A stretch of DNA of 50,157 nucleotides. Origin: Streptomyces sp. SID3343 (GTDB lineage Bacteria > Actinomycetota > Actinomycetes > Streptomycetales > Streptomycetaceae). Made by a program: the position numbers and the translations under genes. Every line of letters begins with the position of its first letter. Position 1 is the stretch's first letter. The notes beneath the pieces are model-generated. The model made no database searches. It was not told the DNA's origin and saw only the letters and a list, made by a program, of their open reading frames with translations. Location of the stretch: NCBI RefSeq assembly GCF_009865215.1, contig NZ_WWJX01001118.1:1-50157 (forward strand), read 5' to 3'. Below are positions 30,204 through 48,768 of the stretch, one piece after another.

Positions 30204-30310
30204 CCCGGCCACAGCATCCTCGCGCCGCCCCAGGGGCCACGTGATCTCTCGCCGCAGGCGCTCTGCCGCGGCACTCCTCCCTCTCATCGCGCATCGCGCC
30301 AGGAGTTCTC

Positions 30311-31290: not shown

Positions 31291-31319
31291 CCCCGCCCAC
31301 GTAGAAAGGAGGAATCCCC

Positions 31320-32927: not shown

Positions 32928-32944
32928 CGGACGCCACCCGATCG

Positions 32945-32980
32945 CCGTGTCCGCCGCCGATGACGCGGCGGCGGGCACGG
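32945..32980 (+). terminator. Hairpin between the VirB6-like and SCO6880 genes
   Basis: 14-base arms (32945-32958 with 32967-32980) pair fully in RNA, with one G-U pair and an 8-base loop. Inside an operon it may be an attenuator or a processing site rather than a full stop. Confidence 0.5.
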
Positions 32981-33017
32981 CCCCGCCCCGCCGACCATCC
33001 GTCGAAGGAACCACCCC

Positions 33018-34478
33018 ATGACCCTCGAAGAACCCCCTGCCACCGTGCGATTCCCGCACCGCTCCCGGCGCGGCGTCCTCCTCGGCCTCACCTGGCCCCA
33101 GCTCATCGTCGCCGCCACCATCGGAATCCTGCTCCTGGCCACCATGCTCACCCTGGGCCTGCTCACAGCCCTCAAACTGATCCCCCTGTGGGCCGTGCTG
33201 GCCGCGCTGGTGATCGTCCGCCACCGAGGCCGATCCCTCGCCGAATGGGCACCCATCGCCGGCCGCTACGCCCGCCGCCGTGCCCGCGGCCAACTCGTCT
33301 GGCTCGCCCGTCCCGCCTCACGACCGCGCCGCGACGGCGTACTGCACCTGCCCGGCACCGCCGCGTCGGTGCGCGTGGTCACCGCCCCCGGCGGGGAACT
33401 CGCCGCCGTCCACGACCCGCACGCCGCCACCCTGACCGCCGTCGTTCGCGTCGCCTCCAGGGCGTTCGCGCTTCTGGACCCGGCGACGCAGAACCACAAC
33501 GTGCACGGTTGGGGCCGGGTTTTGGCGTCGATGGCGCGGACCGGGCAGATCGCCCGGGTCCAGGTCCTGGAACGCACCGTGCCCTCCAGCGGCGACGCCC
33601 TCCAGCGCTACTGGGCCGAGAACGGCAACCCCGACGCGCCGTTCGCCGCCGACATCTACACCGACCTGCTCACCGCCGCCGGACCTGCGGCGGCGCCCCA
33701 CGAGGCGTACGTGGCCGTCGCGTTGGACCTCACCGCCGCCCGGCGCCTGATCAACCAGGCCGGCGGTGGCCTCACCGGCGCTTTCGCCGTCCTTGCGCAG
33801 TTGACCACCACCTTCGACCAGGCCGCGCGACCGGCAGGGGTCATACCGAACGGATGGCTAACTGCTCAAGAGATCGCCGCCGTTGTGCGCACCGCCTACG
33901 ACCCCGCGTCGCTGACCGCCCTGGACCGCTGGTCCGACGAGGGCCGCGCCCAGGCCGAACCGGCGGCGGCCGGACCCGTGGTGGTCGTCGAGGAGGCGGA
34001 CCGCATCCGCACCGACACCGCCTTCCACGCCACGTTCTGGATCGAGAACTGGCCGCGCACCGAGACCCACTCCGGGTTCCTCCACCAGTTGCTGTTCACC
34101 TCCGGGGTTCGGCGCACCCTCTCCCTCGTCTACACCCCGCAGGGCCTGGAATCCGCGCTGCGCGACGTCCAGCGCCGCAAGGCCACGGTGATCGCCGACG
34201 CCAACGAGCGCATCCGCAAGGGCCAGGTCGACAGCGAGTCGGACAGCGTCGAATACGCCGACATCAAACAGCGCGAACGCGAACTGATCGCCGGCCACGC
34301 CGATGTCGCCCTGACCGGACTGGTCACCGTGAGCGCCGAGACGAGCAAGGACCTCGACGCCGCCTGTGCGCAGATCGAGACCGCAGCCGTCGCCGCCCTG
34401 GTCGACCTGCGCCGCCTCACCTGGCAGCAAGGCGAAGCCTTCACCACGGCCGCCCTGCCCCTCGCCCTCGCCGCCTGA
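33018..34478 (+). CDS. SCO6880-family transfer protein (VirB3/PrgI-like N-terminus)
   Basis: The 486-residue protein has a short basic start and two membrane segments (about 22-65) in the VirB3/PrgI style, then a soluble domain. It follows the SCO6880 pattern through L-T-W-P-Q-L-I-V-A-A, W-A-P-I-A-G-R-Y-A-R-R-R and N-H-N-V-H-G-W-G-R-V-L. The soluble part looks like the N-terminal half that is missing from the short VirB4 protein encoded at 34996. Together the two may make up a split VirB3-VirB4 motor. Confidence 0.85.
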   Translation: MTLEEPPATVRFPHRSRRGVLLGLTWPQLIVAATIGILLLATMLTLGLLTALKLIPLWAVLAALVIVRHRGRSLAEWAPIAGRYARRRARGQLVWLARPASRPRRDGVLHLPGTAASVRVVTAPGGELAAVHDPHAATLTAVVRVASRAFALLDPATQNHNVHGWGRVLASMARTGQIARVQVLERTVPSSGDALQRYWAENGNPDAPFAADIYTDLLTAAGPAAAPHEAYVAVALDLTAARRLINQAGGGLTGAFAVLAQLTTTFDQAARPAGVIPNGWLTAQEIAAVVRTAYDPASLTALDRWSDEGRAQAEPAAAGPVVVVEEADRIRTDTAFHATFWIENWPRTETHSGFLHQLLFTSGVRRTLSLVYTPQGLESALRDVQRRKATVIADANERIRKGQVDSESDSVEYADIKQRERELIAGHADVALTGLVTVSAETSKDLDAACAQIETAAVAALVDLRRLTWQQGEAFTTAALPLALAA

Positions 34479-34522
34479 CGCTGACGCGCCGTCACCCACC
34501 CCCACCGCGAAAGACGGACGCC

Positions 34523-34993
34523 ATGCCCCGCACCCCACAGCAGCCAGACGCGCCGGAATCGAACTTCCTCCTGTTCGCCGCCATCGCCCTCGACTGCCAC
34601 CGCACCGTCGACCTCCCGGGCCTCACCGGCGCCGCCACCCGCCGCGAACTCGACGACCTCCACGGCCACCTGATCGCCCTGCACCACCTGATCGACGCAC
34701 ACACCACCCGCACCGCGCCGATCGCCGCCGCCGAGGGCGACCACCTCAAGGCCGCCCGCACCCACCTGTGGCAGGCCGCCGAACAACTCCACCACGCCTA
34801 CCACCACGCACCCCACACCGACGGCGCCACCCCCGACCGCGACGTCTGCCACCGCCGAACCCCCGAAGGCGCACCGGAACTGACCGTGTGCCAGCGCCAC
34901 ATCGGCGCCCTGACCCGAGTCCGCCGCCACGCCACACCCGCCGACCTGCGCAAGAGCGCACCGGGACCGGCCCACCGCACGAAGGAGAAGTAG
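34523..34993 (+). CDS. DUF6238 protein
   Basis: The 156-residue protein matches DUF6238: A-I-A-L-D-C-H-R-T, then L-H-G-H-L-I-A-L-H-H-L-I-D-A-H-T, A-E-G-D-H-L-K-A-A-R-T and V-C-Q-R-H-I. It is helical and histidine-rich, with two cysteines near the C-terminus. The family is found in actinomycete transfer operons next to VirB4 and has no known role. It ends 3 bases before the VirB4 start. Confidence 0.75.
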   Translation: MPRTPQQPDAPESNFLLFAAIALDCHRTVDLPGLTGAATRRELDDLHGHLIALHHLIDAHTTRTAPIAAAEGDHLKAARTHLWQAAEQLHHAYHHAPHTDGATPDRDVCHRRTPEGAPELTVCQRHIGALTRVRRHATPADLRKSAPGPAHRTKEK

Positions 34994-34995
34994 AG

Positions 34996-36492
34996 GTGAG
35001 CCTCCGCCGCGCCAGCGCCAGCCCGCTGTTCACCCCGGCCGCCGCCCCGCGCGCCGAACGCAAGGCCGCCCGCGCCCAACTCGACCGCGCCCAGGGCCGG
35101 GCCCGCCGCGCGGCCGTCCGCGAGAAGCGCCGCACCAGCCCCGCCCCCGACCCGGATCTGGGCCCGACCTACCCGACGTCCGGGCGCTCGGGCCCCGCGT
35201 CCGCCCGCGGCGGCAAACTCCGCCTCCCCGCCCACCGCATGACGACCGCCACCGCCGGTGGCGCGTACCCCTTCCTCGCCGAGGGCGGACTCGGAAGCGA
35301 AGGGCTCTACATCGGCAGGGATCTCCACGCCGAGGGAGCGTTCTGCTACGACCCGTTCAGCCTGTACCAACGCCTGGAGGGCTTCACCAACCCGAACATC
35401 CTGCTGGCCGGGGTGATCGGCATGGGCAAGTCCGCCCTGGCCAAGAGCCTCGCCGTGCGGGCGGTGGCCTGCGGCTACCGCATCTACGTGCCGTGCGACC
35501 CCAAGGGCGAGTGGTCTGCGGTCGCCCACGCCCTGGGCGGCACCACCATCGCCCTGGGCCCCGGACTGCCGGGCCGGCTGAACCCGCTGGACGCTCCCGC
35601 CCGCCCGTCCTCCGTCGACGCACGCAACTGGGTCGCAGAAGTCCGCAAGCGCCGGCTCCTGCTCCTCAACTCCCTGGCGAAGACCGTGCTGCGCCGCGAA
35701 CTGCTGCCCATGGAGCACACCGCGTTGGACGTCGCCCTGGACCACGCGGTCAACAACGCGCAAACCGCCGGACGCACCCCGCTGCTCGGCGACGTCGCCC
35801 ACGTCCTCGGCCATCCGGACCTCCTGGACGAGGCGTTCGGCGAGCACAACGGGCGCCTGGGCCTGGCCGCCGAGGACCTCGCCCACGCCCTGCGCCGTCT
35901 GGTCTCCGGCGACCTGGCCGGCATGTTCGACGCCGAATCCACGGCCAGCTTCGACGCCCGCGCACCCATGTTGTCCATCGACCTCTCCCGCTTGGGCGGC
36001 GCCGGCGACGACACGGCCCTCGTCCTCGCCATGACCTGCGCCAGCGCCTGGATGGAATCCGCGCTCGCCGACCCCGGCGGAGGCCGCCGCTGGGTCGTCT
36101 ACGACGAGGCGTGGCGCGTCATGCGCCACGTCCCCCTCCTGGAGCGCATGCAATCCCAGTGGAAGCTCTCCCGAGGCTTGGGAATCTCGAACCTCATGGT
36201 GATCCACCGCCTCTCCGACCTGCTCAGCGCGGGCGACGCCGGATCAAAGGGCCGGGCCCTGGCCGAGGGCCTCCTCGCGGACTGCAGCACGCGCATCATC
36301 TACCGCCAGGAAGCCGATCAACTCGCCTCCTCCGCATCTTTGTTGGGCCTGACGAGCGTCGAGACCCAGGCAGTGTCCGCGCTGGTCAAGGGACGCGGAT
36401 TGTGGCGCGTCGCCGGACGAAGCTTCGTCGTCCAACACCTCCTGCACCCCCACGAACTCACACTCTTCGACACCGACGCCCGCATGCACTGA
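34996..36492 (+). CDS. VirB4-like conjugation ATPase, short form
   Basis: The 498-residue protein has Walker A G-V-I-G-M-G-K-S (139-146), the C-D-P-K-G-E-W segment (about 168-174), and Walker B R-W-V-V-Y-D-E-A-W (about 355-363). These are the hallmarks of the VirB4/TraC ATPase that powers pilus or channel assembly. It lacks the large N-terminal domain of classical VirB4 proteins (about 800 residues), which SCO6880 may supply. GTG 34996 follows AAGGAG. It is probably membrane-associated on the inner side. Confidence 0.9.
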   Translation: MSLRRASASPLFTPAAAPRAERKAARAQLDRAQGRARRAAVREKRRTSPAPDPDLGPTYPTSGRSGPASARGGKLRLPAHRMTTATAGGAYPFLAEGGLGSEGLYIGRDLHAEGAFCYDPFSLYQRLEGFTNPNILLAGVIGMGKSALAKSLAVRAVACGYRIYVPCDPKGEWSAVAHALGGTTIALGPGLPGRLNPLDAPARPSSVDARNWVAEVRKRRLLLLNSLAKTVLRRELLPMEHTALDVALDHAVNNAQTAGRTPLLGDVAHVLGHPDLLDEAFGEHNGRLGLAAEDLAHALRRLVSGDLAGMFDAESTASFDARAPMLSIDLSRLGGAGDDTALVLAMTCASAWMESALADPGGGRRWVVYDEAWRVMRHVPLLERMQSQWKLSRGLGISNLMVIHRLSDLLSAGDAGSKGRALAEGLLADCSTRIIYRQEADQLASSASLLGLTSVETQAVSALVKGRGLWRVAGRSFVVQHLLHPHELTLFDTDARMH

Positions 36493-36624: not shown

Positions 36625-37467
36625 TTGAACGACCGCCACCGCGTCGCCTCCGTGCGGCACGCCTCGCCAGCCGAGAAGGCAGCCGCCCAGGACCCCCGCC
36701 TCCGGCACGCCTTGGACGCCATCGCGTCCGTGGCCGTCGCCCGACTGCCGATCCCCTTTCACTGGGGCGGAAGCAATCTCGACCGCGCCGACATGATCGA
36801 ACTCGGCAGGGAGCTGTGGGGAGCCGACGAGATGCGCGAAGCCCTCACAACCGCTCCCGGACAGAAGGTGACGCTGTGCCTGCGCCGCCAGGGCGACGTC
36901 CTGGTCGTGCGTCATCCGACCGACCCGGACACCTTCCTCGTCGCGTGCCTGGCCCCCACAAGCGTCAACTTGGACCACGACTGGACCCACGACCCCCACG
37001 CCCCCGCCGTACTGCGCATCCCGGCAGACCCGCACCGGGCCGTCGACGCCATCGCCACACACCTACTGCCCCAGCAACAGGCGGCCGTCACCGCGCTGCG
37101 ACAGGCCGCGGTCGCCGGAGGCACGGAAGTCGTCGTGGGCATCGACCGGACATGGCCGCACCCCGGCCGACTCACCGCCCACGTCACCGACACCGCGCCG
37201 TGGAACCTCATGCACGACCTCGAATACCACGGGTTGACGACCGATGGCGACTGCGTCTACGCCCTGCGCGACTGGGACCTGGAACAAGCCAACCACCTCG
37301 TCGAGCACCTGCAGGAATGCGACTTCCGCGTCCGCCGAGACCACTCACTGCCGCCACGGGGAACGCGCACGAGCGCCGGCACCACACTCGCCGCGCCGCA
37401 CACCCCCTCCGCATCCACCGCCCAGGCGGCCCCGGCCACCCGGCCGAGTCGGTTCCCCCGGGCGTGA
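36625..37467 (+). CDS. Unknown transfer-operon protein, family A (with repeated C-terminal module)
   Basis: The 280-residue protein starts at TTG 36625 behind AGGAG. Residues about 75-150 form a domain shared with the next two genes: D-V-L-V-V-R-H-P-T-D-P, then V-N-L-D-H-D-W and I-P-A-D-P-H-R-A-V-D-A-I. Residues about 170-232 are the recurring module: L-T-A-H-V-T-D-T-A-P-W, then D-L-E-Y-H-G-L, Y-A-L, and V-R-R-D at the end. The C-terminal tail is low complexity. Function unknown. Confidence 0.7.
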   Translation: MNDRHRVASVRHASPAEKAAAQDPRLRHALDAIASVAVARLPIPFHWGGSNLDRADMIELGRELWGADEMREALTTAPGQKVTLCLRRQGDVLVVRHPTDPDTFLVACLAPTSVNLDHDWTHDPHAPAVLRIPADPHRAVDAIATHLLPQQQAAVTALRQAAVAGGTEVVVGIDRTWPHPGRLTAHVTDTAPWNLMHDLEYHGLTTDGDCVYALRDWDLEQANHLVEHLQECDFRVRRDHSLPPRGTRTSAGTTLAAPHTPSASTAQAAPATRPSRFPRA

Positions 37468-37519
37468 GCACGCTCGCGGCCCAGCCCCGAACCGCCTGAA
37501 CCTGCCACCGCCTGTCGCG

Positions 37520-38440
37520 GTGCGCCTTCTGCCGCTCGGTGAACGGGCCGCATCAACCCCATCCACCCGGGAGCGCCCGACCACCAGCGGAGACGACATC
37601 ACCCCCGACAACCGTGGCAACGAGAACGAACGCCACCACCAGCAGCCCGACTTCCCCGCCCTGTACAACCTGGCGAACGCCATCGCCGACCGACTGCAGG
37701 GCTGGTGGCAAGCCAACGCCAGCCGCCTCCTCGTCTCCGGCCGCCGCGTGCTGGCCGAGACCGTGTGGGAAACAACCATGCTGGTCCGCGCGGTCACCGA
37801 GTACCCGTGCCCGCACGCAGCGGTCCTGATCGGACCCGGCGTCGAGCGACTGTTGGTCGCCCCCGACCCCGACAACCGCGAGCGCCACATCGTCGGTTCC
37901 CTCGCCCCGTGGGGCGCCGATCCCCGGCACGACTGGCCCCACGACCCCCTCGCCCCACCGGTCGTCGCCATTCCCGACGACCCCGAACAAGCAGCGGCAA
38001 TCATCAAGACCCGACTCCTTCCGCCGCTGCACGCCGCCCTGGACCGACTCGACCGCATTCCGCAGCGCCGCATCGACACCGGGCCCACCAACCTCGAACC
38101 CCACGTGCGCGTCGGCCGCTTTCCGCTGTTCGACATGGCGGTCGCCCACATCACAGAGACCACTCCGCCGCACGCGCTGGACATCCTCAGGGACCACGGG
38201 TTCGAAGACGCGGGACCGGGCCGGCTCAGCCTCTACGGCGGCAACATCCCCCTGGCCCGCCGCACCGTGCGGTCCCTACGCGAAGCCGGCGTCGTCGTCC
38301 ACGCGGACCTGGCGAGAGCGAACTCCCTCGCCGCTCTCGCGCTTGCGATGAAGACCGCATCCCACAGGCGCACCGCCCCACCCAGCAGCGCAACGCGCCC
38401 ACGACCACCGAGCGCCCCCACCGCCCCCCGCCGCCGCTGA
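37520..38440 (+). CDS. Unknown transfer-operon protein, family A, second copy
   Basis: This paralogue of the 36625-37467 product shares the first domain (R-L-L-V-A-P-D-P-D-N-R, then V-G-S-L-A-P-W and I-P-D-D-P-E-Q-A-A-A-I-I) and the C-terminal module (A-H-I-T-E-T-T-P, L-R-D-H-G-F, L-R-E-A-G-V-V-V-H-A-D-L). The start is uncertain. GTG 37520 is the first usable codon but has a poor binding site; a GGAG stands just before an ATC at 37598, which would give 280 residues like the first copy. Function unknown. Confidence 0.65.
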   Translation: MRLLPLGERAASTPSTRERPTTSGDDITPDNRGNENERHHQQPDFPALYNLANAIADRLQGWWQANASRLLVSGRRVLAETVWETTMLVRAVTEYPCPHAAVLIGPGVERLLVAPDPDNRERHIVGSLAPWGADPRHDWPHDPLAPPVVAIPDDPEQAAAIIKTRLLPPLHAALDRLDRIPQRRIDTGPTNLEPHVRVGRFPLFDMAVAHITETTPPHALDILRDHGFEDAGPGRLSLYGGNIPLARRTVRSLREAGVVVHADLARANSLAALALAMKTASHRRTAPPSSATRPRPPSAPTAPRRR

Positions 38441-38534
38441 CGCGCCGAAGGAAGACGGCACCGCTCCAAGGGTCGACGGCCCGAACGAGAACACGACCCG
38501 GCCCCGCCCGCCGATTCCTCGAAAGGAGGACCCC

Positions 38535-39398
38535 ATGCTCGCCGATGGTTCCCCGCCCCTGAACCACTGGACACGACGCTTCGGCACCGTGCGTGAGCGC
38601 GACGCCGCCTACGACCACGACCTCGCCCAGGCCCTGGAGACCCTCGGGAAACGCGTGCGTGCGGTGCTCGGCTGGCTGCCGATCAAACGCTCCGGCACCG
38701 ACCACCACAACATGTCCGAACTCGCCCAGCGCACCTGGGGCCCGACTCGCCTTCGGGACGCGCTCCTGAGGACCCCCGGCCAGAGCCTGCTTCTCGTCGG
38801 CAAGCGCGAAGACGAACTCCTCGTCGTGCGCGATCCCGACGATCCGAAACGCTTCGTCGCCGGATCGCTCGCCCCGCGCCACGTGAACCTTGACCACGAC
38901 TGGGCCTTCGACGGCAACGGACCCGTAGGCATCACCGTCCCGACCGACCCGGAACGCGCCGCAGATGTGATCGCCACCCAGTGGTGGCCGCAACACGAAG
39001 CCGCGACCATTCGGCTGCGCGCCGCCGCGCTGGACGGAGGAACCGAAGTCGTCCTCGGCCGCGACCGACACGGCCGTCTGCGGGCACGTGTCCCGGACAC
39101 CGCGCACCCGGCCGTGACGCGCGCCCTCGAAGACCACGCCATGCGGCCGTGGACCCACTGCGGCTACCTCCTGATGCCCACGGATGAGACCGCGGCCTCG
39201 ACAGAGCACCTGCTCAGGCACCTGACGCGCGAATCCGTCCGCATCCGCCGCGATCCCAGCCTCGGCGACCCCGACGCGAACCGACGCAGCGCCGCCGCGC
39301 TCGTCCTGACGAGCACCGCCTCCCCGGTCCCAGCGTCCCTCCCCCTCCAGCCCTCGGCACTGGGGCGCGTTCACAGCGCGCCGCCGCGCCACCGCTGA
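38535..39398 (+). CDS. Unknown transfer-operon protein, family A, third copy
   Basis: The 287-residue protein starts at ATG 38535 with AAAGGAGG upstream. It has the same two parts as the two genes before it: a domain at about 70-150 (E-L-L-V-V-R-D-P-D-D-P, V-N-L-D-H-D-W, V-P-T-D-P-E-R-A-A-D-V-I) and the module at about 179-243 (R-A-R-V-P-D-T-A, A-L-E-D-H-A-M, Y-L-L, V-R-I-R-R-D). Three copies in a row point to tandem duplication followed by divergence. Confidence 0.7.
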   Translation: MLADGSPPLNHWTRRFGTVRERDAAYDHDLAQALETLGKRVRAVLGWLPIKRSGTDHHNMSELAQRTWGPTRLRDALLRTPGQSLLLVGKREDELLVVRDPDDPKRFVAGSLAPRHVNLDHDWAFDGNGPVGITVPTDPERAADVIATQWWPQHEAATIRLRAAALDGGTEVVLGRDRHGRLRARVPDTAHPAVTRALEDHAMRPWTHCGYLLMPTDETAASTEHLLRHLTRESVRIRRDPSLGDPDANRRSAAALVLTSTASPVPASLPLQPSALGRVHSAPPRHR

Positions 39399-39419
39399 CC
39401 CCTCGAAGGAACGAACCCC

Positions 39420-39800
39420 ATGGCACCCACTCCCCAGCCGGAAGTCTCAGTCGGCCTGCATCCGCAATTCGGCATCGTCGCCCTGACCACCGACAACGCC
39501 CCGCCCCTGGCCGCTCGCCTCCTCGACATCGCCGGCTTCGACGCCCGGGGAGTCGGCACGCACGTCCTGGACTACGCCGACGAAGACGTTCTCGACCTGC
39601 GACACGCCCACAACGTGGTCACGGTCCTCCGCGAAGCCGGCATCCCCGTCCGCTCCGACCTGCCGCCGACTCCCGAACCGCGCTTCACAGCAGCCGCAAC
39701 GGCGGCCCCGACGGACACCGTCCCCGTAGCCGCCTCCCAGCCACCGAGGCGATTCACCACCGATCCCGTGACGTCGACCGCGCACGCCCCGCGGCGCTGA
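39420..39800 (+). CDS. Single-module unknown protein
   Basis: The 126-residue protein consists of one copy of the recurring module (about 14-80: G-I-V-A-L-T-T-D-N-A-P-P, A-R-L-L-D-I-A-G-F, V-L-R-E-A-G-I-P-V-R-S-D-L) and a low-complexity tail. AAGGA precedes the ATG. It shows that the module can stand alone. Function unknown. Confidence 0.68.
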   Translation: MAPTPQPEVSVGLHPQFGIVALTTDNAPPLAARLLDIAGFDARGVGTHVLDYADEDVLDLRHAHNVVTVLREAGIPVRSDLPPTPEPRFTAAATAAPTDTVPVAASQPPRRFTTDPVTSTAHAPRR

Positions 39801-39814
39801 CCCGAGGAACGCCC

Positions 39815-41143
39815 ATGGCACCCACCGAAGTCGCCGATCCCGACATCGTCATCGGCCGCCGCGACGGCGTCGGCATCGTCGCCGCCAATCACAGCAAGCG
39901 ACCGGCCGCAGCCCACCTTCTCAACGCCCTCGGCTTCGAACGGACCGCGGAGCGGGGACTGTACGCCCTCACCGCCGGCAACCAGCCCGAAGCCGACCGC
40001 GCCGCCCAGGCCGTCGCGATCCTGCGCGCGGCGAAACTCGACGTGGCGGCCGACGTGGCCTTCGAACCCGAACCGGGAACCCTGCGCGCCGCCGCCCCGG
40101 CCCAGGCTCCTCGACTGGCCAAAGTCCCAACCACCGCCCACGGCGCGGATGTCGCTTTCGGGATGCACCCCACCGACGGCATCACCGCCGCCTTCACCGA
40201 CAACCACCCCAACGCGGCGATGGTGCTGGGGGTCGCGGGATTCCGCCGCGCCAAGGATCTCGACGTGTACACGCTGCCAGCCGGTACGGACCCAGTCGCC
40301 GCCAGCGAGAGTGTTCGCGCCGCGACGCAGGTTCTGCGCGCCACGGGATCCACCGTTCACATCCTGCCCGGCACGCTCACCGATCCCAAGCCCGAACCGA
40401 ATCGCTCCGCGGTTCTCGACGCCGACAAGCCGTGGCAGGGCGAGAAAAAGGACAGGGCGGTCGACGTGGCCGAAGTCCTCGACGGGCCGACCGGCGCGCG
40501 GGCCCTCGTCGATGCCCTGCGGCGGCTGCTGCGCGCCGCTGCGGCATGGTCTGCGGCCCGCGTGGCGACTCTGGGGCCCTCGCTGGCGGAACGTCTGACC
40601 GACGCGGCAACCCGTCTGGAGCAGGTCGGTGCCAGCCTCGACGCGGCCAGCGACCGCCTGCGCTCCGGCCGGCCGGCCGAAGCCGTCACGGATCCAGCCC
40701 CCGCCACGAAGCAATCGCCGCCCCCGGTCGAAGTCGAACCGCAAGCCTTCGACGCCTTCGTGGGAAAGGGAGCCGACGCAGCGACCATCTCCCGCGCCCT
40801 GGACCAACTCACCTCCCAAACGGGGCCGTTGGCCAACGCCCACCGCTTGGTCGACTCGGCCGCCCAGCGCTGCGCGGAACTCCCGGGTGAGCTCGGCGCC
40901 GAACTGTCGACCGAACTGGCCGCCTCGTCCCGTCGCCTGGGCAACATCGGCCACTCGCTGCTGTACGTCAGCGACCACCTCGCGGACACGCCCGCCGCGA
41001 CACCGTTCACCACGCCGGTCTCCGCACGAGCGGCAGCCGCACGCTCGACCACCCGGACAGGTGCCGCAGTCGCGCCCACTCCCACGACTCCTGCGGCGGC
41101 ACAGCCCGCGCGTACCCCGGCAGACAACGCCCGCTCGCGATGA
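39815..41143 (+). CDS. Unknown protein with two copies of the recurring module and a helical C-terminus
   Basis: The 442-residue protein has module copies at about 10-84 (G-I-V-A-A-N-H-S-K-R-P, H-L-L-N-A-L-G-F, I-L-R-A-A-K-L-D-V-A-A-D) and about 111-177 (G-I-T-A-A-F-T-D-N-H-P, V-L-G-V-A-G-F, V-L-R-A-T-G-S-T-V-H). Residues about 230-395 form a long helical region with heptad-like leucine spacing, probably a coiled coil. The tail is disordered. ATG 39815 follows GAGGAA. Confidence 0.68.
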   Translation: MAPTEVADPDIVIGRRDGVGIVAANHSKRPAAAHLLNALGFERTAERGLYALTAGNQPEADRAAQAVAILRAAKLDVAADVAFEPEPGTLRAAAPAQAPRLAKVPTTAHGADVAFGMHPTDGITAAFTDNHPNAAMVLGVAGFRRAKDLDVYTLPAGTDPVAASESVRAATQVLRATGSTVHILPGTLTDPKPEPNRSAVLDADKPWQGEKKDRAVDVAEVLDGPTGARALVDALRRLLRAAAAWSAARVATLGPSLAERLTDAATRLEQVGASLDAASDRLRSGRPAEAVTDPAPATKQSPPPVEVEPQAFDAFVGKGADAATISRALDQLTSQTGPLANAHRLVDSAAQRCAELPGELGAELSTELAASSRRLGNIGHSLLYVSDHLADTPAATPFTTPVSARAAAARSTTRTGAAVAPTPTTPAAAQPARTPADNARSR

Positions 41144-41230
41144 GCTCGGTCCGCGGCAGGCCCCGCGGCACCGCCATCGGTTCGACCCGCAGTACCACCG
41201 ACCCGCGACAGTCAGGAACAAAAGGAGACC

Positions 41231-41956
41231 ATGAGCATCGAATACGACCAGATCATGCATCGCAGCACCGCGAGTGGCAGCATCGTCATCCGCTCCTTCG
41301 ACGAGCAACGCGACGATCGTGTCGCGAAGTTGCTCATGGGCACGGGATTCCGTTGGTCCCCCGACGAATCCGCATTCTCCCTGCGTGAGGGGCTCTCGTT
41401 CCAAGAGGAGCGCGACCTTGCGTCCACTGCCGTCGCCGCGCTGAGCGCGGGCCACGTCCTGCTCCTGGTCGACAGCGAACTGCGCGATCTGCCCATCCAC
41501 GTACAACAACCGCTCGACACGAATCTCGGCCTCCCCCACGTCGCCCACCAGGTCTCGCTCCGCCCCCATCCCCATGCCCAGGCAGCGCTGGTGGAGACGC
41601 TCCTGGACGACGACTACGGGGCCCTGAGCGGGATCGAATTCCTCGTCCTGACTCTGCGCGAACGCGTCGAAGACCATCCCGGTCCCGAACGGAACTCCAT
41701 CGATTCGGCCCTGCACAGCGCCGCGACCCATCTGGCCGCCGCCATTCAGGACCTGGACCTCGCCGCACACCACCTCGCGCAGTGGAATCCCCCCAAAGCG
41801 AAACCCGCGCCCACCGCCGACTTTCACCTCGCGGCATACGCCCTCCGAGCCACCGCCGCGCGCACGACCTCCGCCGCCACCAGTCGGGCCACCGCCCTCC
41901 CCAACCCCGCCGAAACGGTCGCGCGGCCGAGCCCTCCAGCACGTACGCGCCGATGA
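41231..41956 (+). CDS. Unknown protein with one divergent module
   Basis: The 241-residue protein has a divergent module at about 8-85 (G-S-I-V-I-R-S-F-D-E, K-L-L-M-G-T-G-F, A-L-S-A-G-H-V-L-L-L-V-D). A helical region follows (about 110-190; D-S-A-L-H-S-A-A-T-H-L-A-A-A-I-Q-D-L) with an arginine-rich end. ATG 41231 follows AAGGAG. It shares its general plan, module then helices, with the preceding gene. Confidence 0.65.
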   Translation: MSIEYDQIMHRSTASGSIVIRSFDEQRDDRVAKLLMGTGFRWSPDESAFSLREGLSFQEERDLASTAVAALSAGHVLLLVDSELRDLPIHVQQPLDTNLGLPHVAHQVSLRPHPHAQAALVETLLDDDYGALSGIEFLVLTLRERVEDHPGPERNSIDSALHSAATHLAAAIQDLDLAAHHLAQWNPPKAKPAPTADFHLAAYALRATAARTTSAATSRATALPNPAETVARPSPPARTRR

Positions 41957-42013
41957 CCGGCGGCGCTCGGACGGCCGCCCGCACACCCTCACACACCCGA
42001 AAGGAGGCCGCTG

Positions 42014-42544
42014 GTGCCCACCCCTGACGAGCAGCCGCGTACCCCGCCCGCGAGCGTCGAGGACCTCCAGGCGCTGACCACCGCTCTCTCCGCCGCCGAC
42101 CCCAATGACGTCGCGAACATCCTGTTCGCCGCAGTCGACGACAGTCCCCTCTTCGCGGCCCTGGACAAGCTCCTGGCCACCGCCGCGAAGGGCACCTACG
42201 ACGCCCCCCAGGGCGGGCAGGCACGCGATCGCCTGCGTGTAGCCCGAGTCGAACTGACGCGAGCCGCCCAGCTCATCACCAGCGCCGGTGAATATCTCCA
42301 GGCGTGGGATGCCATCCCCAAACGTGCCACGAACCCCCGCCCCGTCCGCGAGACCACCGAGGCCCCGAAGCGGGCCGGCATCGACGACCGGGCACGGACG
42401 GTCCGCGCACTCACCGGACCCGAGGGCGCTCGCGCCGCAGCCACACGTCCCGCGCCGACCCCGGACACGCCCGCCCCGCCCCGCCCGGTGCTGCCTCCGC
42501 CCTGGCTCCCCCCAGCCCAGGACCCGACCCACCCCACGCGCTGA
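42014..42544 (+). CDS. Helical protein of unknown function
   Basis: The 176-residue protein starts at GTG 42014 with AAGGAGG. The core is helical (V-E-D-L-Q-A-L-T-T-A-L-S-A-A; L-F-A-A-L-D-K-L-L-A-T-A-A-K; L-T-R-A-A-Q-L-I-T-S-A-G-E-Y-L), similar in style to the helical parts of the two previous proteins but without the module. The C-terminal 60 residues are proline/alanine-rich. Confidence 0.6.
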   Translation: MPTPDEQPRTPPASVEDLQALTTALSAADPNDVANILFAAVDDSPLFAALDKLLATAAKGTYDAPQGGQARDRLRVARVELTRAAQLITSAGEYLQAWDAIPKRATNPRPVRETTEAPKRAGIDDRARTVRALTGPEGARAAATRPAPTPDTPAPPRPVLPPPWLPPAQDPTHPTR

Positions 42545-42628
42545 CCACCCCACCTCCCGCGAGGACCCCATGGTCCTTGTTGGTACACCCGGCTACCAGA
42601 ACGTGCGGAAAGGCGAGTCAGGTAACTG

Positions 42629-42650
42629 CGGGGCGGTGAGGCCCGCCCCG
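42629..42650 (+). terminator. Hairpin in the gap before the frameshifted gene
   Basis: CGGGGCGG (42629-42636) pairs with CCGCCCCG (42643-42650) around a 6-base loop. It lies in the 140-base gap after 42544 and may attenuate transcription. Confidence 0.5.
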
Positions 42651-42684
42651 GAGCTTTCCCGCCACCACCGATAGGAGATCCGCC

Positions 42685-43046
42685 TTGCACGAAGCACCAG
42701 CAGAGCCGTTCATGACGATCCGGCACACCATCACCGGCGAGATCACCACCACCGGCTACAACGCCGCCGCCCGGCGGATCCTGCTCCAAGCCGGCTTCGA
42801 CGAGACGCCAGGCTGCGCCTGCCGAGCGACGGAACCCGGTACGAAGCGGACGCACGGGCCTGCTCGGCAGCCGGCGAGCTGCCCGTCGCCCACCATCCCC
42901 TGCACCTGGACCGAGCCCTCGGTCGGCCGGTGAGCGCCGACGGTACGCCCCGGTTGGCCCGGTCGCCGATGTCGACACAGTCCGTGATCCTTCCGAGAGC
43001 GGCCGGCCTCTCCAGCTCATCGCCAACCCCGCCCGCACCCGCATGA
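42685..43046 (+). pseudogene. Module-type gene broken by a frameshift
   Basis: From TTG 42685 (AGGAG upstream) the protein starts like the recurring module (G-E-I-T-T-T-G-Y-N, R-I-L-L-Q-A-G-F-D-E-T). After about 42,811 the open frame turns into cysteine/proline-rich text and stops at 42933. In the -1 frame the text continues sensibly (L-R-L-P-S-D-G-T-R-Y-E-A-D-A-R-A) to a stop at 43044-43046, just before the next ribosome binding site. A one-base deletion explains this best; programmed -1 frameshifting is less likely. Confidence 0.65.
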
Positions 43047-43058
43047 AGGGGCCTCGTT

Positions 43059-44261
43059 TTGACCACACCCGGAACGCCTACCGGTCCAGCGCGCACCAGG
43101 GGCGGCGAACTCCGGGCCAAGGTGGCCCGACTGCTGGCCGACCGGCCGACGGACACGTTCACCATCGGGGACATGGCCAGGCAGGTGGGCCACTCCCACG
43201 GCGCCGTCCGCAACGCCGCCCTCACCCTGGTACGACGCGGCGAGGCCGACCAAGGCGGAACCGGACAACCGGAGCTCCGCGCGAACGCGAAAACCGCCGC
43301 AGCCGCGCAGACCGCTGTGATCAGCCCACCGGGCACCCACCCTGCCCGCGCCCCGGCGGCCACGGCCCGCACGACCATTCCCGCAGCAGCGCCCAGGCAG
43401 ACCGGCCCGATCCGCCGCGCGGGGGGCCAGCTCTACCACCCCCGGGAGCTGGCCGATCTGCCCGACGTCGACGCTCTGAATCGCCTGCGCGACGCCGACG
43501 TGCCGCTGCTGCTCTACGGTCCTCCGGGCACCGGCAAGACGTCGTTGGTGGAGGCGGCGTTCCCGGACCTGCTCACCGTCGCCGGTGACGGCGACACCAC
43601 GGTCGGCGACTTGATCGGCGAGTACACGCAGGCTGACAGCGGAGGCTACGTCTTCCAGTACGGTCCGCTGGTCACCGCGATGACCGAGGGCCGTGCCCTG
43701 CTGATCGACGATGCCACCTTGATCTCACCCAAGGTCCTGGCGGCGCTGTATCCCGCGATGGACGGGCGCCGACAGATCCAGGTCAAGGCCCACAAGGGCG
43801 AGACCGTCAAGGCCGAGCCCGGCTTCTACGTGGTGGCGGGCCACAATCCCGGCGTCCACGGGGCCGTTCTGACGGAGGCACTCGCGAGCCGGTTCAGCGT
43901 GCAGATCCAGATCGGCACGGACTACGACCTCGCCCTGGCCTTGAGGATCGATGCCCGGGTGGTCCGGGTCGCCCGACACCTCGCCCACCAAGTCGAACTG
44001 GGTGAGCTGGGCTGGGCCCCCCAACTGCGAGAGCTGCTCAGCTATCAGAAGACCGAGGCCGTCCTCGGCACCAAAGCCGCGCTCGCGAACCTGGTCGGCA
44101 TCGCTCCTGTGGAGGATCGCGACGCCGTCGCCGCTGCCGTCGTCAAGGTTGCCGGCGTCAGGGAGGTCGCCCCGCTCACCCTCGGCAAGCAGCTTCCCGC
44201 CTCGGCCGTCCGGCAGCCCCCGGGCAGCACCGGCACCGCACACCGGGGCCACTCGCGATGA
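43059..44261 (+). CDS. MoxR-type AAA+ ATPase with N-terminal winged helix
   Basis: The 400-residue protein starts at TTG 43059 behind AAGGGG. Residues about 17-62 look like a winged helix (I-G-D-M-A-R-Q-V-G-H-S-H-G-A-V-R-N-A). The AAA+ domain has Walker A G-P-P-G-T-G-K-T (154-161) and Walker B A-L-L-I-D-D-A-T (203-210). It resembles MoxR/NorQ proteins, which remodel or load cofactors together with a VWA protein. A VWA protein follows with a 4-base overlap, so the two very probably act as a pair. Confidence 0.88.
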   Translation: MTTPGTPTGPARTRGGELRAKVARLLADRPTDTFTIGDMARQVGHSHGAVRNAALTLVRRGEADQGGTGQPELRANAKTAAAAQTAVISPPGTHPARAPAATARTTIPAAAPRQTGPIRRAGGQLYHPRELADLPDVDALNRLRDADVPLLLYGPPGTGKTSLVEAAFPDLLTVAGDGDTTVGDLIGEYTQADSGGYVFQYGPLVTAMTEGRALLIDDATLISPKVLAALYPAMDGRRQIQVKAHKGETVKAEPGFYVVAGHNPGVHGAVLTEALASRFSVQIQIGTDYDLALALRIDARVVRVARHLAHQVELGELGWAPQLRELLSYQKTEAVLGTKAALANLVGIAPVEDRDAVAAAVVKVAGVREVAPLTLGKQLPASAVRQPPGSTGTAHRGHSR

Positions 44262-46057
44262 GCGCCCACCACCACGTCCAGTCTCTGGCCACCACGCCGG
44301 ACGACGACGCCGACCTCGCGCGATGGGACGACGACGGCGCCCCGCCCGCGCAACCCCGTTCCTCCCCGGACGCGTGGCTGCGCGTGGGAGCCGAACTCGG
44401 CGATCGGCTGGTCGCCCTCTCCGGCCGCCAAGACCTCCTCGTCACCTGCCGCCCCGGCACGCGCAGCGGCGCACCGGCCGCGTTCTTCCCCACTCTGGGC
44501 GAGGTCGAGTTCGACGCCACGCTGTTCGCCCCGCTCCAGCCCCACGAGATCCATCCGCGGATCGTGGGCGACGAGGAGAGGTATCCCGCCGCCTGGGGAG
44601 TATTCGTCCACGAGGCCGCGCACGCGGCCCACTCCGTCTGGACGGCGCCGGCCGGAGCGAACCCCCGTGTCGTCGAGGCCGCGCTCCTGCTGGAGGAGAG
44701 CCGCGTCGAAGGCGCACACCTGAGCACGCGTCCCACGGACCGCACGTACCTGCGCACCAGTGCCCGAACCCTGGTCATGCCCGACGTCGCCCAGCCCACC
44801 CTCCAGGGCATCGAGCACGCCGCCGCCGTGGCGGCCCTGGTCCTCGGCCGCCGTGACGTCGGCATCCTGGACGCCGGCGAATCCCGGGCCGTCGCCGATC
44901 TGTGCGAAAAGGTGCTGGGCGCAAACCTGCTGGCCACACTCGCCCGCATCTGGACCGCAGCCCACCGGTGCGCCGACCACGACGCCACGACCATGCTCGC
45001 CCACGCTCAAGACTGGTGCGACGCCCTGGACACCGCGGCCCTCGCCCTGCCCGTGCCGGAGAACCTCACCGATCTGCTGTCCGGCGCCGTGGGGGTCGTC
45101 ATGGACAGCACGGCAGCCACCGACGCCGCCGACCTCGCGGCACAGGCCGCAGCGACCACCGCCACGGCCGCGCGGTCCAAGGCGCAGGCTCAGGACCGCG
45201 CCCAGCGGGCCGGCCGGCGACGCAAAGCCGCCACCATCGCCAAGAGCGTGTTCAACGCCGGCGGCACCACCGTCAACCCCGACGGCACACCGGCGCCCCA
45301 CGGCAACCCGGTCACCGGCACCCGCAGGCCCACCGCCACCGAGCAGAGTGCCGCCGCGCGCCTGAGCCGCGCCCTGCGTGCCGCCGCCTACCGCGAGCGG
45401 ACCGAGGAGCGGACCACCAGCCCCACCCCGCCCGGCCGCCTCAACATGCGCGCCGCCCTCGCCCGCGACGCCCAGCGCGCGGCCGGGTCGGTCCCCACCG
45501 CACAGCCGTTCACCCACACCCGCCGCCGCAGCTCGCCCACCCCACCGCTGCGTGTGGGTATCGCCGTCGACGTCTCCGGCTCCATGAGTGCCGCCTGCGC
45601 GCCCGTCGCGTCCGCTGCCTGGATCGTGGCACGCGCGGCAGCCCTCACCGACCCCGACTCCCTTACCGCCACCATCGCCTACGACACGCACCTGACCGCA
45701 TTGACCCGACCCACCCACCGAGCACCAGAGCGCGTGACGACGGTCAAAGCCAACGGCCGCAGCCACAACCTCGGCGACGCCATCGACGCACTCGACCACG
45801 GCCTCGAACTCAGCCGCCCCGGCGCCGGCCGCCTCCTCGTGATCGTCACCGACGCCGTCTATACCCCCGACGAAACCGCTCAAGCCGTCACCCGCGTCAA
45901 GCAGCTCACGACCGCCGGCTGCGCCGTACTCCAGCTCACCCTCACCGCAAAGTCCCGCCACTTGCCGGGGACCACCTTGCTGCACCTGACCCAGCCCTCC
46001 AGCGCTCCCGTCGCCATCGCCACGGCGGCCACAGACGCCATCCGCAGAACACGCTGA
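44258..46057 (+). CDS. VWA-domain protein with an H-E-A-A-H zincin-like motif
   Basis: The 599-residue protein has a zincin-like motif H-E-A-A-H (118-122) followed by L-L-L-E-E-S-R-V-E (about 143-151), where a glutamate could be the third ligand. A helical middle follows, and a C-terminal VWA domain (about 430-599) with the MIDAS sequence D-V-S-G-S-M-S at about 438-444. It overlaps the MoxR gene by 4 bases. MoxR/VWA pairs act as chaperones; a peptidase-like part in the VWA partner is the unusual point. Confidence 0.85.
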   Translation: MSAHHHVQSLATTPDDDADLARWDDDGAPPAQPRSSPDAWLRVGAELGDRLVALSGRQDLLVTCRPGTRSGAPAAFFPTLGEVEFDATLFAPLQPHEIHPRIVGDEERYPAAWGVFVHEAAHAAHSVWTAPAGANPRVVEAALLLEESRVEGAHLSTRPTDRTYLRTSARTLVMPDVAQPTLQGIEHAAAVAALVLGRRDVGILDAGESRAVADLCEKVLGANLLATLARIWTAAHRCADHDATTMLAHAQDWCDALDTAALALPVPENLTDLLSGAVGVVMDSTAATDAADLAAQAAATTATAARSKAQAQDRAQRAGRRRKAATIAKSVFNAGGTTVNPDGTPAPHGNPVTGTRRPTATEQSAAARLSRALRAAAYRERTEERTTSPTPPGRLNMRAALARDAQRAAGSVPTAQPFTHTRRRSSPTPPLRVGIAVDVSGSMSAACAPVASAAWIVARAAALTDPDSLTATIAYDTHLTALTRPTHRAPERVTTVKANGRSHNLGDAIDALDHGLELSRPGAGRLLVIVTDAVYTPDETAQAVTRVKQLTTAGCAVLQLTLTAKSRHLPGTTLLHLTQPSSAPVAIATAATDAIRRTR

Positions 46058-46204
46058 GACGTCGCAGAAGGCGGAAGCGTCCCCGAGACCACCGCCAAGC
46101 ACTCTCCAGACCACCTCCGTCCGCCGCATGAATCGTGCATCTGATGCACGACCCTCCGCAACGGCGCGAGCCACCACCCCAACCGCCAACGAAAGGCACT
46201 CGAT

Positions 46205-46750
46205 ATGCCGCAGACCAGCAGCCCGACCTCGAACGTAACGCCCAAACGGAATTCCCCGGGGGTGGCCACCCACTGGACCATCGACCACGTCTGCGGCCAC
46301 CAGGCCGACAAGGACCTCTCCCACAAAGCCGCCGACGAGCGCGCGGGATTCGCCCGGTGGCTGGCCACCCGCGACTGCACCGCCTGTTGGCAGGCCGCCC
46401 GCACCACCGACACCGACGACACCGCGACCTGGATCGCCGGGCGCCGCGCCGCCGAGCAGGAGGCCGCCGACACCTGGGCCCACCAGTTCGACATGCAGCC
46501 CCTGACCGGCACCGACAAGGCCGTCCAGTGGGCGACCCGCTGCCGCCACCAGCTCGTCACCGCCGCCCACACGAGCCTCGTCATCGAAGGCGACCTCGAC
46601 GAACAAGCCTGGCAGGACATCGAGCAGGCCGCCCGCACCATCGGCCGGGCCGGCTGGTGGATCGACCAGCGCGACGCAGACCCCACGGACCTGCCCGAAC
46701 TCGTCGCCGCGGCCACCACCGCCGACCGTCCTCACGAGAACCCGTTCTGA
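46205..46750 (+). CDS. Unknown protein with a Cys/His metal-binding pattern
   Basis: The 181-residue protein has C-G-H at about residue 30 and C-T-A-C-W (about 58-62), a likely zinc site, with the conserved-looking R-A-G-F-A-R-W-L between them. The rest is helical (I-A-G-R-R-A-A-E-Q-E-A-A-D-T-W; I-E-Q-A-A-R-T-I). AAAGG lies before ATG 46205. The stop overlaps the next ATG by one base (TGATG). I do not recognise the family. Confidence 0.68.
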   Translation: MPQTSSPTSNVTPKRNSPGVATHWTIDHVCGHQADKDLSHKAADERAGFARWLATRDCTACWQAARTTDTDDTATWIAGRRAAEQEAADTWAHQFDMQPLTGTDKAVQWATRCRHQLVTAAHTSLVIEGDLDEQAWQDIEQAARTIGRAGWWIDQRDADPTDLPELVAAATTADRPHENPF

Positions 46751-47211
46751 TGCGATCCCCGACGTGGGAGGGCGCGGACGTCCTCGGGAGCGACACCTGG
46801 ATCCCCGTCGAACCGTCCTCGGCGGACTCCGCGAGCCTGGTCGCCGACCGGTGGCCACACCTGACCCTCGTCGCCTCCGCGGTCGTGCGCGACCGGCGGG
46901 ACCGGCCCGGGCACGTGCTGGTCGCCTACGACTCGCTCGCTACCCACGCGGACCGCCGGTTCCTGGCCGTCGCGATGTACAGCGACCGGCGCGAACGCCT
47001 CTTCGAGATGAGCCACCACCATGCCCCGACGCTGGCGTTGGCCAGCGCCTGGCTGCGGGAGCACCACGGCGACACCCGGCTGGAACTGTCCACGGCGATC
47101 CTGCGGAACGCCCGCGAAGCCGCCGCCCTCGGCCGCACCCTCACCCCGCAGGCGCTGCCGACGCCGGCGACCACGGAGGCACCCATCCCGCCGCGCGCTC
47201 TCGGCCGATAG
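46750..47211 (+). CDS. Small protein of unknown function
   Basis: The 153-residue protein contains a likely alpha/beta core at residues 30-125 (L-V-A-S-A-V-V-R-D-R-R; V-L-V-A-Y-D-S-L; L-A-V-A-M-Y-S-D-R-R; A-S-A-W-L-R-E-H-H-G-D). ATG 46750 is coupled to the previous stop. It is reminiscent of the first domain of the family A proteins, but too weakly to join them. Function unknown. Confidence 0.6.
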   Translation: MRSPTWEGADVLGSDTWIPVEPSSADSASLVADRWPHLTLVASAVVRDRRDRPGHVLVAYDSLATHADRRFLAVAMYSDRRERLFEMSHHHAPTLALASAWLREHHGDTRLELSTAILRNAREAAALGRTLTPQALPTPATTEAPIPPRALGR

Positions 47212-47234
47212 CCCCGCTCCCAGGAAGAGACCTC

Positions 47235-48521
47235 ATGACCGATCACCCCCTGTACGGCCGGCCCACGAGCGCCCACCTGCGCCAAACCAAGTGGCATCCC
47301 ATCGACTACGAGAGCGCCTACGACCCGGCCGTCCTGATCAGCCGCCGCGCCCCGGACCGCGAACCCATCGCCGAAGGAGGCATCGGGATCTCCCGGGACG
47401 TCCTCCTCGCCGCCGGCTTCGGCGAAACCACGAACTCCGGTCCACTCGACCGCGAATACTCCCTGACCTCCGGCGACCCCCACGACGACCTCGCCCAATG
47501 CGCCCGCGCCGTCGCCGCAGTGGCCGCGGCCGACTACCCCGTCACCGTCGCTGGCCACCTGTTCGAGCCCGAGAACGACCTGCTTCCTCACCTGTCGACG
47601 GCAGCCCTGATCGCCACGGTCGAGGGCATCCAGTCCCTTCCCGGGCCCGCCGACGTGGCCAGCCTCACCCACTGCCTCCTCGACCCCGGCCACGGCCTGC
47701 TCACCCGCGTCAACGACACCCTCGACACCCTCAGGCAACGCCAATTCCCCCGGGGCCACCACAAGGAAGCCGAGCGCATCCGCCGTGCCGCCGGCATGAC
47801 CACGGCCGCGACCGAGACCGCCCGCCTCCTCTACGCCCTGCGCGGGTTCCACGTGCCAGCGAAGACCACACCCGCCACGACGCGAAGCGCCCCCAACGCC
47901 GCACTTCCCGAAGTGGAACTTCGCGACGACAACGGACTGGTCGTGGCCCACGGGGCCGATCACACAGCGGCACGACTGCTGGAACGAGCCGGTTTCGCCG
48001 AGTCCGCGTTCGCCCCCGACCGACACCAACTCCCGCCCGACAGCGCGGAATGGCTCGTGCAGAAACGGTGCACACAGGCCACCCGCCTGCTCACCGCGAT
48101 CGGCCACACCGTGCACGTCGACCCCGGGTTGCTGGCCGGTCGGAACTCGCACCTGGGGCCCTGGATGGCACCGGCCATCGCCGACGTCGTCGACCGCCTC
48201 CGCGACGACGTCCGAACCGACACCCCGACCCTTACCCACCTGCTCCTGGACCACGACGGCACGGTCCAGCGCGTTCGAGAGTGCCTCGACGAGCTGGCCT
48301 GGCACCTCGCCGATCAAGGCGCATACGAGCGTGGGTGGAACGTCCTCGACATCTCCCGCCAAGTCGGCGCCGCCCACGAAGGCCCTCACCTCCCCACGCC
48401 CACCGCAACCCGCCGCACCCGCACACAAGGCATGGCGCCCTCACCCACCTCACTCACCACCACCGCCGCCGCGACGTCGACACCCACGGGCACCGCCGCA
48501 CCCCGACCGCGCAAGCGCTGA
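47235..48521 (+). CDS. Unknown protein with two copies of the recurring module
   Basis: The 428-residue protein from ATG 47235 has module copies at about 32-112 (D-V-L-L-A-A-G-F, R-E-Y-S-L-T-S-G-D, Y-P-V-T-V-A-G-H) and about 217-291 (G-L-V-V-A-H-G-A-D-H-T-A, R-L-L-E-R-A-G-F, L-L-T-A-I-G-H-T-V-H-V-D-P). Helical stretches follow each copy (L-T-H-C-L-L-D-P-G-H; L-T-H-L-L-L-D-H-D-G), so the whole protein looks like an internal duplication. The tail is low complexity. Confidence 0.68.
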   Translation: MTDHPLYGRPTSAHLRQTKWHPIDYESAYDPAVLISRRAPDREPIAEGGIGISRDVLLAAGFGETTNSGPLDREYSLTSGDPHDDLAQCARAVAAVAAADYPVTVAGHLFEPENDLLPHLSTAALIATVEGIQSLPGPADVASLTHCLLDPGHGLLTRVNDTLDTLRQRQFPRGHHKEAERIRRAAGMTTAATETARLLYALRGFHVPAKTTPATTRSAPNAALPEVELRDDNGLVVAHGADHTAARLLERAGFAESAFAPDRHQLPPDSAEWLVQKRCTQATRLLTAIGHTVHVDPGLLAGRNSHLGPWMAPAIADVVDRLRDDVRTDTPTLTHLLLDHDGTVQRVRECLDELAWHLADQGAYERGWNVLDISRQVGAAHEGPHLPTPTATRRTRTQGMAPSPTSLTTTAAATSTPTGTAAPRPRKR

Positions 48522-48564: not shown

Positions 48565-48768
48565 ATGTCCACCATCGCCGACACCCGCGACGTCCTCGAT
48601 CTCCTCACCGACCGGCGCGGCAATCCGGCCCCCATGCAAGTGATCCACGACGCCGCCACCGCGGACCGCTCCGGCACCGCCCCCTGGTGCGATCACACAC
48701 GCGATCGCCTGGCACGAGCAATCGACCTACCCGGTTCCCTGTACCGCATCGACCGCGACGACCTAGCG
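48565..48768 (+). CDS. Unknown protein, 3' end replaced at the element boundary
   Basis: ATG 48565 opens a protein of unknown family (T-R-D-V-L-D-L-L-T-D-R-R-G-N; M-Q-V-I-H-D-A-A-T-A). An upstream CTG about 7 bases after GGGAGG is another possible start. The frame has no stop within the element; it runs past about 48,768 into antisense of chromosomal genes. In a circular form of the element the gene would be completed by the left end. Confidence 0.5.

Follow-up and report, generated by a model that had tools for sequence, protein, structure and literature searches.

The stretch of DNA analysed here, called the window, is the 50,157-nt contig NZ_WWJX01001118.1 of Streptomyces sp. SID3343 (positions 1 to 50,157, forward strand). 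It carries part of an element whose transfer operon encodes a type IV secretion system (T4SS), and a module of approximately 75 residues is repeated across neighbouring proteins of this operon. An earlier note on this DNA had claimed nine intact copies; all of them were found, with slightly shifted borders. By inspection of the sequence, the module has the order strand-strand-helix-strand-helix and looks like a small alpha/beta domain. As that note had described, it stands alone (gene 39420), doubled (gene 39815) or C-terminal to another domain (gene 36625). Its assignment to a transfer operon was borne out by T4SS genes upstream (28935-36492) and by a coupling protein on contig C786, which continues the element. 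The module genes are listed below, each named by its first coordinate. Domain E-values of module copies refer to the external profile described thereafter, and residue borders of the earlier note are given in brackets.

36625..48521, + strand: module-gene block; Pro/Ala/Thr-rich linkers and terminal Arg (gene 36625 ends Arg-Ala)
37129..37344, + strand: module, C-terminal part of gene 36625, residues ~169-240 (170-232); family HHalign 95.8%
38099..38308, + strand: module, gene 37520, residues 194-263 (206-275); phmmer 4e-4 and family HHalign
39045..39257, + strand: module, gene 38535, residues ~171-241 (179-243); paralogy to 36625 and family HHalign
39438..39659, + strand: lone module, gene 39420, residues 7-80 (14-80); domain E 9e-12
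39839..40054, + strand: module copy 1, gene 39815, residues 9-80 (10-84); domain E 1.4e-17
40148..40363, + strand: module copy 2, gene 39815, residues 112-183 (111-177); domain E 1.2e-18
40451..40648, + strand: helical unit 1, gene 39815; domain E 2.2e-10
40772..40963, + strand: helical unit 2, gene 39815; domain E 8e-14
41306..41455, + strand: module core, gene 41231, residues 26-75 (8-85); domain E 5e-4
41537..41764, + strand: helical unit, gene 41231; domain E 8.8e-15
42567..46079, + strand: probable inserted cassette with the broken module gene 42685, a MoxR-like AAA ATPase and a VWA-like gene
42718..42849, + strand: first part of a module, broken gene 42685; domain E 0.03 (external profile), 0.005 (full profile)
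47325..47552, + strand: module copy 1, gene 47235, residues ~31-106 (32-112); domain E 2.5e-3
47637..47822, + strand: helical unit, gene 47235; domain E 3.9e-4
47907..48125, + strand: module copy 2, gene 47235, residues ~225-297 (217-291); domain E 9e-9
48565..48764, + strand: start of the next relaxase-like module gene, identical to C786, where the intact frame has 293 residues

To avoid circularity, the main test profile was built only from copies from outside the window's genome (29 rows, fifth and last round). Four window copies were strongly recovered (gene 39420, both copies of gene 39815 and copy 2 of gene 47235) and two weakly (gene 41231 and copy 1 of gene 47235). The broken gene 42685 matched through the first half of the module only, gene 37520 reached only 0.6 (0.6-0.7 over the external and full profiles), and genes 36625 and 38535 gave no match by the external hidden Markov model (HMM) alone. 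No reversed open reading frame (ORF) from the contigs of the window's genome scored below 1. Pairwise searches linked the copies further. BLAST gave 1e-7 between copies 1 and 2 of gene 39815, 7e-7 between gene 39420 and copy 2 of gene 39815, 3e-6 between the second copies of genes 39815 and 47235, 3e-5 between genes 37520 and 39420, and 4e-12 between genes 36625 and 38535; phmmer likewise linked the copies of genes 37520 and 39420 (4e-4). Copy 1 of gene 47235 reached 3.4e-13 with profile A3 (12 of 67 segments omitted), whose rows include the same copy from contig C786. The alignment for gene 39815 (A2) used 34 of 36 non-redundant homologues, out of 54, after removal of L061 (ambiguous residue) and L097 (partial), and that for the second half of the 47235 protein (A6) used 25 of 26, L057 being dropped.

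The products of genes 36625, 37520 and 38535 are paralogues across most of their length (42% identity between 36625 and 38535). As the external HMM is weak or silent there, their copies rest on profile-profile evidence. When a profile of their C-terminal parts was compared in HHalign with that of the external module copies, the two matched at 95.8% across 69 columns; all HHalign percentages are from pairwise comparisons and not from database searches. By comparison, their N-terminal part gave 0.9%, a reversed profile 0.1%, and 86 windows from 19 unrelated families 14.3% at most. The reversed-ORF and unrelated-family controls rule out chance or composition as the source of the module matches. 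Thus the claim of one homologous module across the operon was upheld by the external profile and HHalign together, each with its controls. The tenth copy, proposed for gene 42685, fared less well: its first half is present, and it ends at about residue 55, within the apparent cassette.

The family was collected with an iterated profile over 8,561 ORFs from the window, its sister contigs and 65 external loci, copies being accepted at a domain E-value <1e-3 and coverage >75%. Four external contigs are duplicated (L029/L054, L031/L083, L032/L092 and L033/L094), leaving 61 distinct loci. The search returned 202 module copies, and the lowest E-value of a reversed ORF was 0.27 in the final round and 0.24 over all rounds. 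Repeats are counted in these 202 copies, in the 117 helical units given below and in copies per locus, and the 47235 gene is also present in C786; omitting repeats and lifting the coverage filter gave 218 module matches. At E <=1e-6 the module was found in 37 of 101 Streptomycetaceae genomes, the window's own included. Six of 119 genomes scanned across the phylum passed 1e-3: the window's genome, one relative, one with a DUF3560 protein, one unjudged (L106, translated on the wrong strand), and two weak matches judged noise (L104 and L105, a solute-binding protein and an acetyltransferase, both named by resemblance). Homologues of the 39815 protein were found at 54 loci among genome contigs and in one plasmid record; the same searches found none for the 47235 protein.

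The T4SS genes of the window and the element's relaxase are as follows.

28935..36492, + strand: T4SS genes NlpC/P60, VirB6-like, PrgI/EccE-like and VirB4-like ATPase, assigned by Pfam and gene order
12894..14642, + strand: the element's relaxase, no module, tail Arg-Arg; PF03432 E 1.8e-8

Among the T4SS genes, NLPC_P60 matched at 4.5e-20, and TrbL (0.0049), EccE (3.1e-4), PrgI (0.021) and AAA_10 (0.026) lay below the cut-off; the gene order recurs in relatives. VirB4 was present at 53 of the 61 distinct external loci, PrgI/EccE at 52, VirB6 at 50 and the coupling protein at 42. Some loci lack one or more T4SS genes in the compared stretch, and six (3.4-20 kb) have neither VirB4, VirB6 nor coupling protein. 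Where a distinct external locus has VirB4 as well as the coupling protein (40 loci), the module ORFs lie between the two without exception (103 of 103), and at the 53 loci with VirB4 every module copy (175/175) is on the strand of VirB4. The compared stretches hold 1 to 7 copies per locus. One might regard such genes as recombination debris, paralogues with little function that pile up by duplication in a mobile operon; the one broken copy and the variable copy number would agree with this. However, when doubled proteins of different species were compared, the nearest neighbour of a copy was its positional counterpart in 32 of 35 cases, which indicates old paralogues kept over species, and frames and tails are preserved. 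We consider this explanation very improbable.

Two features shared by the module proteins, a helical unit after the module and an arginine C-terminus, were absent from the earlier note. The usual order starts with an optional N-terminal domain, often a degenerate relaxase domain; the module follows, single or doubled, and after it come in many proteins one or two helical units, a disordered-looking linker rich in Pro, Ala and Thr, and Arg-x-Arg-COOH. The helical unit comprises approximately 77 residues, helical by inspection, with 117 copies in the collected ORFs, locus L005 included (best reversed score 0.046), and it lies C-terminal to the module in 71 of the 74 proteins that contain both. 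Many module proteins begin with a domain homologous to the relaxase of the element (phmmer with the window relaxase as query, E down to 5e-34) and so to the MobA/VirD2-like nuclease domain of PF03432. Unlike that domain, the five module-bearing forms scanned gave no direct match to PF03432, and the HxH motif, read from the alignment, was kept by both relaxases (2 of 2) and by none of the 15 module-bearing proteins. In relaxases this motif binds metal. Since it is lost in all 15 aligned proteins, the relaxase-like domains fused to the module are probably dead nucleases. Several such HxH-less domains with a module occur per element (L005 12143-16468, L004 4323-5543, L007 16310-17629).

The C-terminal residue was Arg in 78 of 88 non-redundant module proteins and in 50 of 283 control proteins of the same loci, the controls coming from a crude gene caller that missed genes 39420 and 39815, so that some may be wrong. 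By position, Arg made up 89% at -1 and 57% at -3 in module proteins, compared with 18% and 16% in controls; near-identical tails were dropped from the tail counts, and the C786 repeat of the 47235 gene from the positional and clustering counts. When the proteins were clustered without their tails, Arg was the majority end in 16 of 18 groups, with 138 of the 160 proteins falling into just two groups. In further genomes chosen by module match only, held out from the first count, 40 of 50 proteins ended in Arg, one of them after a masked stretch. Stop-codon context was rejected as the cause: Arg is encoded by a mixture of codons, and the frequency of TGACC at the stop, 41% as compared with 27% in controls, differs too little to account for Arg ends at 89% and 18%.

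The distribution of this tail bears on what the proteins might do at the T4SS. They could be scaffold or assembly factors, docking by their tails on the coupling protein or VirB4 and remaining in the donor machine. Such a role would suit genes that lie between VirB4 and the coupling protein, in a block that recurs in dozens of loci, and tails common to proteins with different N-terminal domains. Set against this, a copy number of 1 to 7 per locus is unusual for structural parts, and the tested machine genes mostly lack a terminal Arg. At the same loci, machine parts and members of the gene-46262 family together ended in Arg in only 4 of 68 cases (VirB4 1/8, VirB6 1/21, NlpC 0/10, PrgI 0/3, coupling protein 1/16, 46262 1/10). 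A structural role of this kind appears quite unlikely.

The reading that we favour, while granting it somewhat less than an even chance, is that the module proteins serve a conjugative T4SS of actinobacteria, either as accessory proteins or as its substrates, with the tail as a putative signal for the coupling protein. The coupling protein would read the C-terminal Arg-x-Arg-COOH tag, which would lead the proteins to the T4SS either as translocated substrates or as adaptors bringing the relaxosome. The module could be a recognition domain that anchors the protein on the DNA-relaxase complex or on a partner; together with the helical unit it would hold the protein to the relaxosome or its partners, and the paralogues may differ in their binding targets. 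A bolder version, which we regard as doubtful, is that these proteins form an undescribed class of T4SS substrates, with more than 12 paralogues per element, many of them on dead relaxase domains. They would be addressed by Arg-x-Arg-COOH, sorted or docked by the new small domain, and would enter the recipient along with the DNA, which they would establish there.

Several observations weigh against a common role of module and tail at the coupling protein. The p-value of 2e-34 for the Arg ends is too small, owing to the relatedness of the proteins, and the hold-out rate (80%) is below the discovery rate (89%). Ten of the 88 module proteins have no Arg end, and neither does gene 36625. Proteins with only the helical unit end in Arg in 24 of 27 cases, and non-module proteins of the block in 18 of 32. 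The element's true relaxase has no module and only an Arg-Arg end, and module-less proteins of the relaxase family end in Arg in just 3 of 7 cases. Moreover, two module genes of the window's element lie beyond the coupling protein, and sequence searches of the PDB gave no credible relative (best 0.082 in one search, none in a second). As helical-only and other block proteins also end in Arg, a protein can have the tail without the module, which may be no part of any signal. The idea of module and tail as one inseparable signal is weakened by the helical-only proteins; taken with the non-module Arg ends and the module-less relaxase, these indicate that the tail marks a wider class of block proteins.

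The earlier note knew no named family for the module, and in the databases this stands. Pfam and NCBIfam gave no credible family for 50 diverse module proteins, and PHROGs no match for nine window proteins. Membership in any of their families was rejected for want of a credible match; the best stray ones, TY-Chap3 (0.0049) and a DNA polymerase III subunit (0.0047), each concerned one of the 50 proteins. The claim has to be qualified by one remote relative, the N-terminal domain of DUF3560 proteins. The module profile matched a set of 13 such domains (ten from plasmids, two from viral contigs and one from a genome) at 96.3% in HHalign over 70 of 76 columns, and the reversed profile gave 0.1%; the subfamily of 36625, 37520 and 38535 alone gave only 7.0%. 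The Pfam model of DUF3560 (PF12083) starts after this N-terminal domain, which is thus unnamed in Pfam too. PF12083 itself was absent from the families matched by the 50 module proteins, which gave no match to its model, and the module is not followed by a DUF3560 domain. In the scan of 119 phylum genomes, the DUF3560 protein was the one credible match outside the window's family, one further match being unjudged. The two domains are similar in length and collinear over the 70 columns, and differ in an Arg/Trp-rich motif after the GF element that is lost in most module copies. From these profile comparisons, a remote relationship between the module and the unnamed N-terminal domain of actinobacterial plasmid DUF3560 proteins appears credible. 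A plasmid protein annotated as ParB family (L126, 1495-3252) begins with this N-terminal domain and a DUF3560 domain.

This relative gives weight to donor-side DNA binding, which is a serious rival even though we rate it as rather unlikely. On this account the module binds DNA in the donor relaxosome, the Arg tail adds non-specific affinity, and the paralogues bind several sites around oriT or coat the transferred strand and are not translocated. The remote homology to a domain of which one protein is annotated as ParB-family partition, the fusion of the module to relaxase-like domains, and the 16 copies of differing sequence in one element (half copy included) all speak for it. It would fit less well with a tail in which Arg is fixed at -1 and -3 of the C-terminus and not spread as in a DNA-binding tail, and with the near absence from the module consensus of the Arg/Trp-rich motif.

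A role of the module proteins as accessory proteins or substrates would have precedents in other T4SS. Short positive C-termini serve as T4SS signals, such as the Arg motif of Agrobacterium VirB/D4 effectors (PMC10025392), and a BID domain is combined with a positive tail in Bartonella effectors and relaxases (PMC6509941). A translocation-signal domain of a relaxase can even lie within a vestigial enzyme that has retained single-strand binding (PMC3912908). Like BID, the module is a recurrent domain, single or repeated, found in the company of relaxase domains and of a T4SS locus and combined with a short C-terminus of positive charge (PMC6509941); the positively charged tail expected of BID-type proteins is indeed present. 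Unlike the BID of Bartonella effectors and alpha-proteobacterial relaxases, which is a four-helix bundle, the module looks alpha/beta by its pattern of strands and helices; in addition, the true relaxase has no module here. The XVIPCD proteins of the Xanthomonas T4SS are likewise a family unified by a conserved domain (PMC10025392). By their description, however, XVIPCD is approximately 120 residues long, is itself C-terminal and belongs to antibacterial effectors, and no Arg tail is described in the text available (PMC10025392).

As a 2011 survey stresses, a single FtsK-like pump is what conjugation requires in Actinobacteria (PMC3218068). In the available text of the literature on Streptomyces T4SS integrative and conjugative elements (ICEs), DUF3560, Gram-positive Arg signals, actinobacterial T4SS and relaxase-like paralogues (including PMC9513070 and PMC3218068), neither module nor tail was described; subscription papers were outside the scope of this survey, and a nameless module cannot be searched by name. 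Judging from the sequences, a modular family linked to a T4SS and bearing a C-terminal charge signal would be of a known kind, and we did not find this domain and its setting described.

To our knowledge, little is known about the mechanism of T4SS-type conjugation in Streptomyces relatives. The module, its fixed gene block bounded by VirB4 and the coupling protein, and a tag on proteins that are not machine parts offer a concrete handle on actinobacterial T4SS. Sets of candidate accessory proteins or substrates can be compiled for the 37 of 101 Streptomycetaceae genomes carrying the module, and a module family would annotate genes that have no Pfam or NCBIfam match.

The whole of contig C298 makes up the window. 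Its sequence up to and including base 48764 is shared without a difference by contig C786, which goes on with four more relaxase-like module genes, the coupling protein (PF12696 1.4e-32, PF02534 1.9e-21), a C5 methylase, a further two module genes and a DnaB-N protein, adding six module copies to the element. The point where C298 leaves C786 falls within the following module gene, of which C786 has the intact form. Nothing in the compared part of C786 corresponds to the last 1.4 kb of the window, and the split at 48764 can be read either as a second rearranged copy or as a misassembly. Paralogous islands were found on two further contigs of the window's genome, C143 and C1047.

The region 42567-46079 (3.5 kb) looks like a separately moving cassette, in which case gene 42685 would not be native to the operon. 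Its main pieces share 93-94% DNA identity with the Streptomyces loci L052 (compared only to 44238) and L061, compared with mostly 65-75% in the flanks; the near-identical relatives are from Streptomyces sp. MnatMP-M17 and or43. Pfam gave AAA_5 (E 4.6e-19) and, below the cut-off, VWA_2 (0.047). On C1047 the genes that flank the cassette adjoin each other without it. The short frame of gene 42685 is no sequencing slip of the window, as the same short frame occurs in both Streptomyces relatives.

Another repeated domain of Streptomyces is encoded on the window's element.

23224-24069, - strand: DUF317/SPDY protein, Pfam match; two similar neighbours

DUF317/SPDY (PF03771) resembles the module in being a repeated Streptomyces domain on this element. 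Membership of the module in this family was rejected: profile similarity was at most 3.6% (with a cluster that included gene 23224), and the window module proteins had no Pfam match to it.

Directly downstream of the coupling protein, locus L005 carries a C5 methylase (8202-9317, - strand) and a frame at 9317-10240 (- strand) that looks PAPS-reductase-like but has no Pfam match. On C143 a similar PAPS-reductase-like frame likewise follows the coupling protein.

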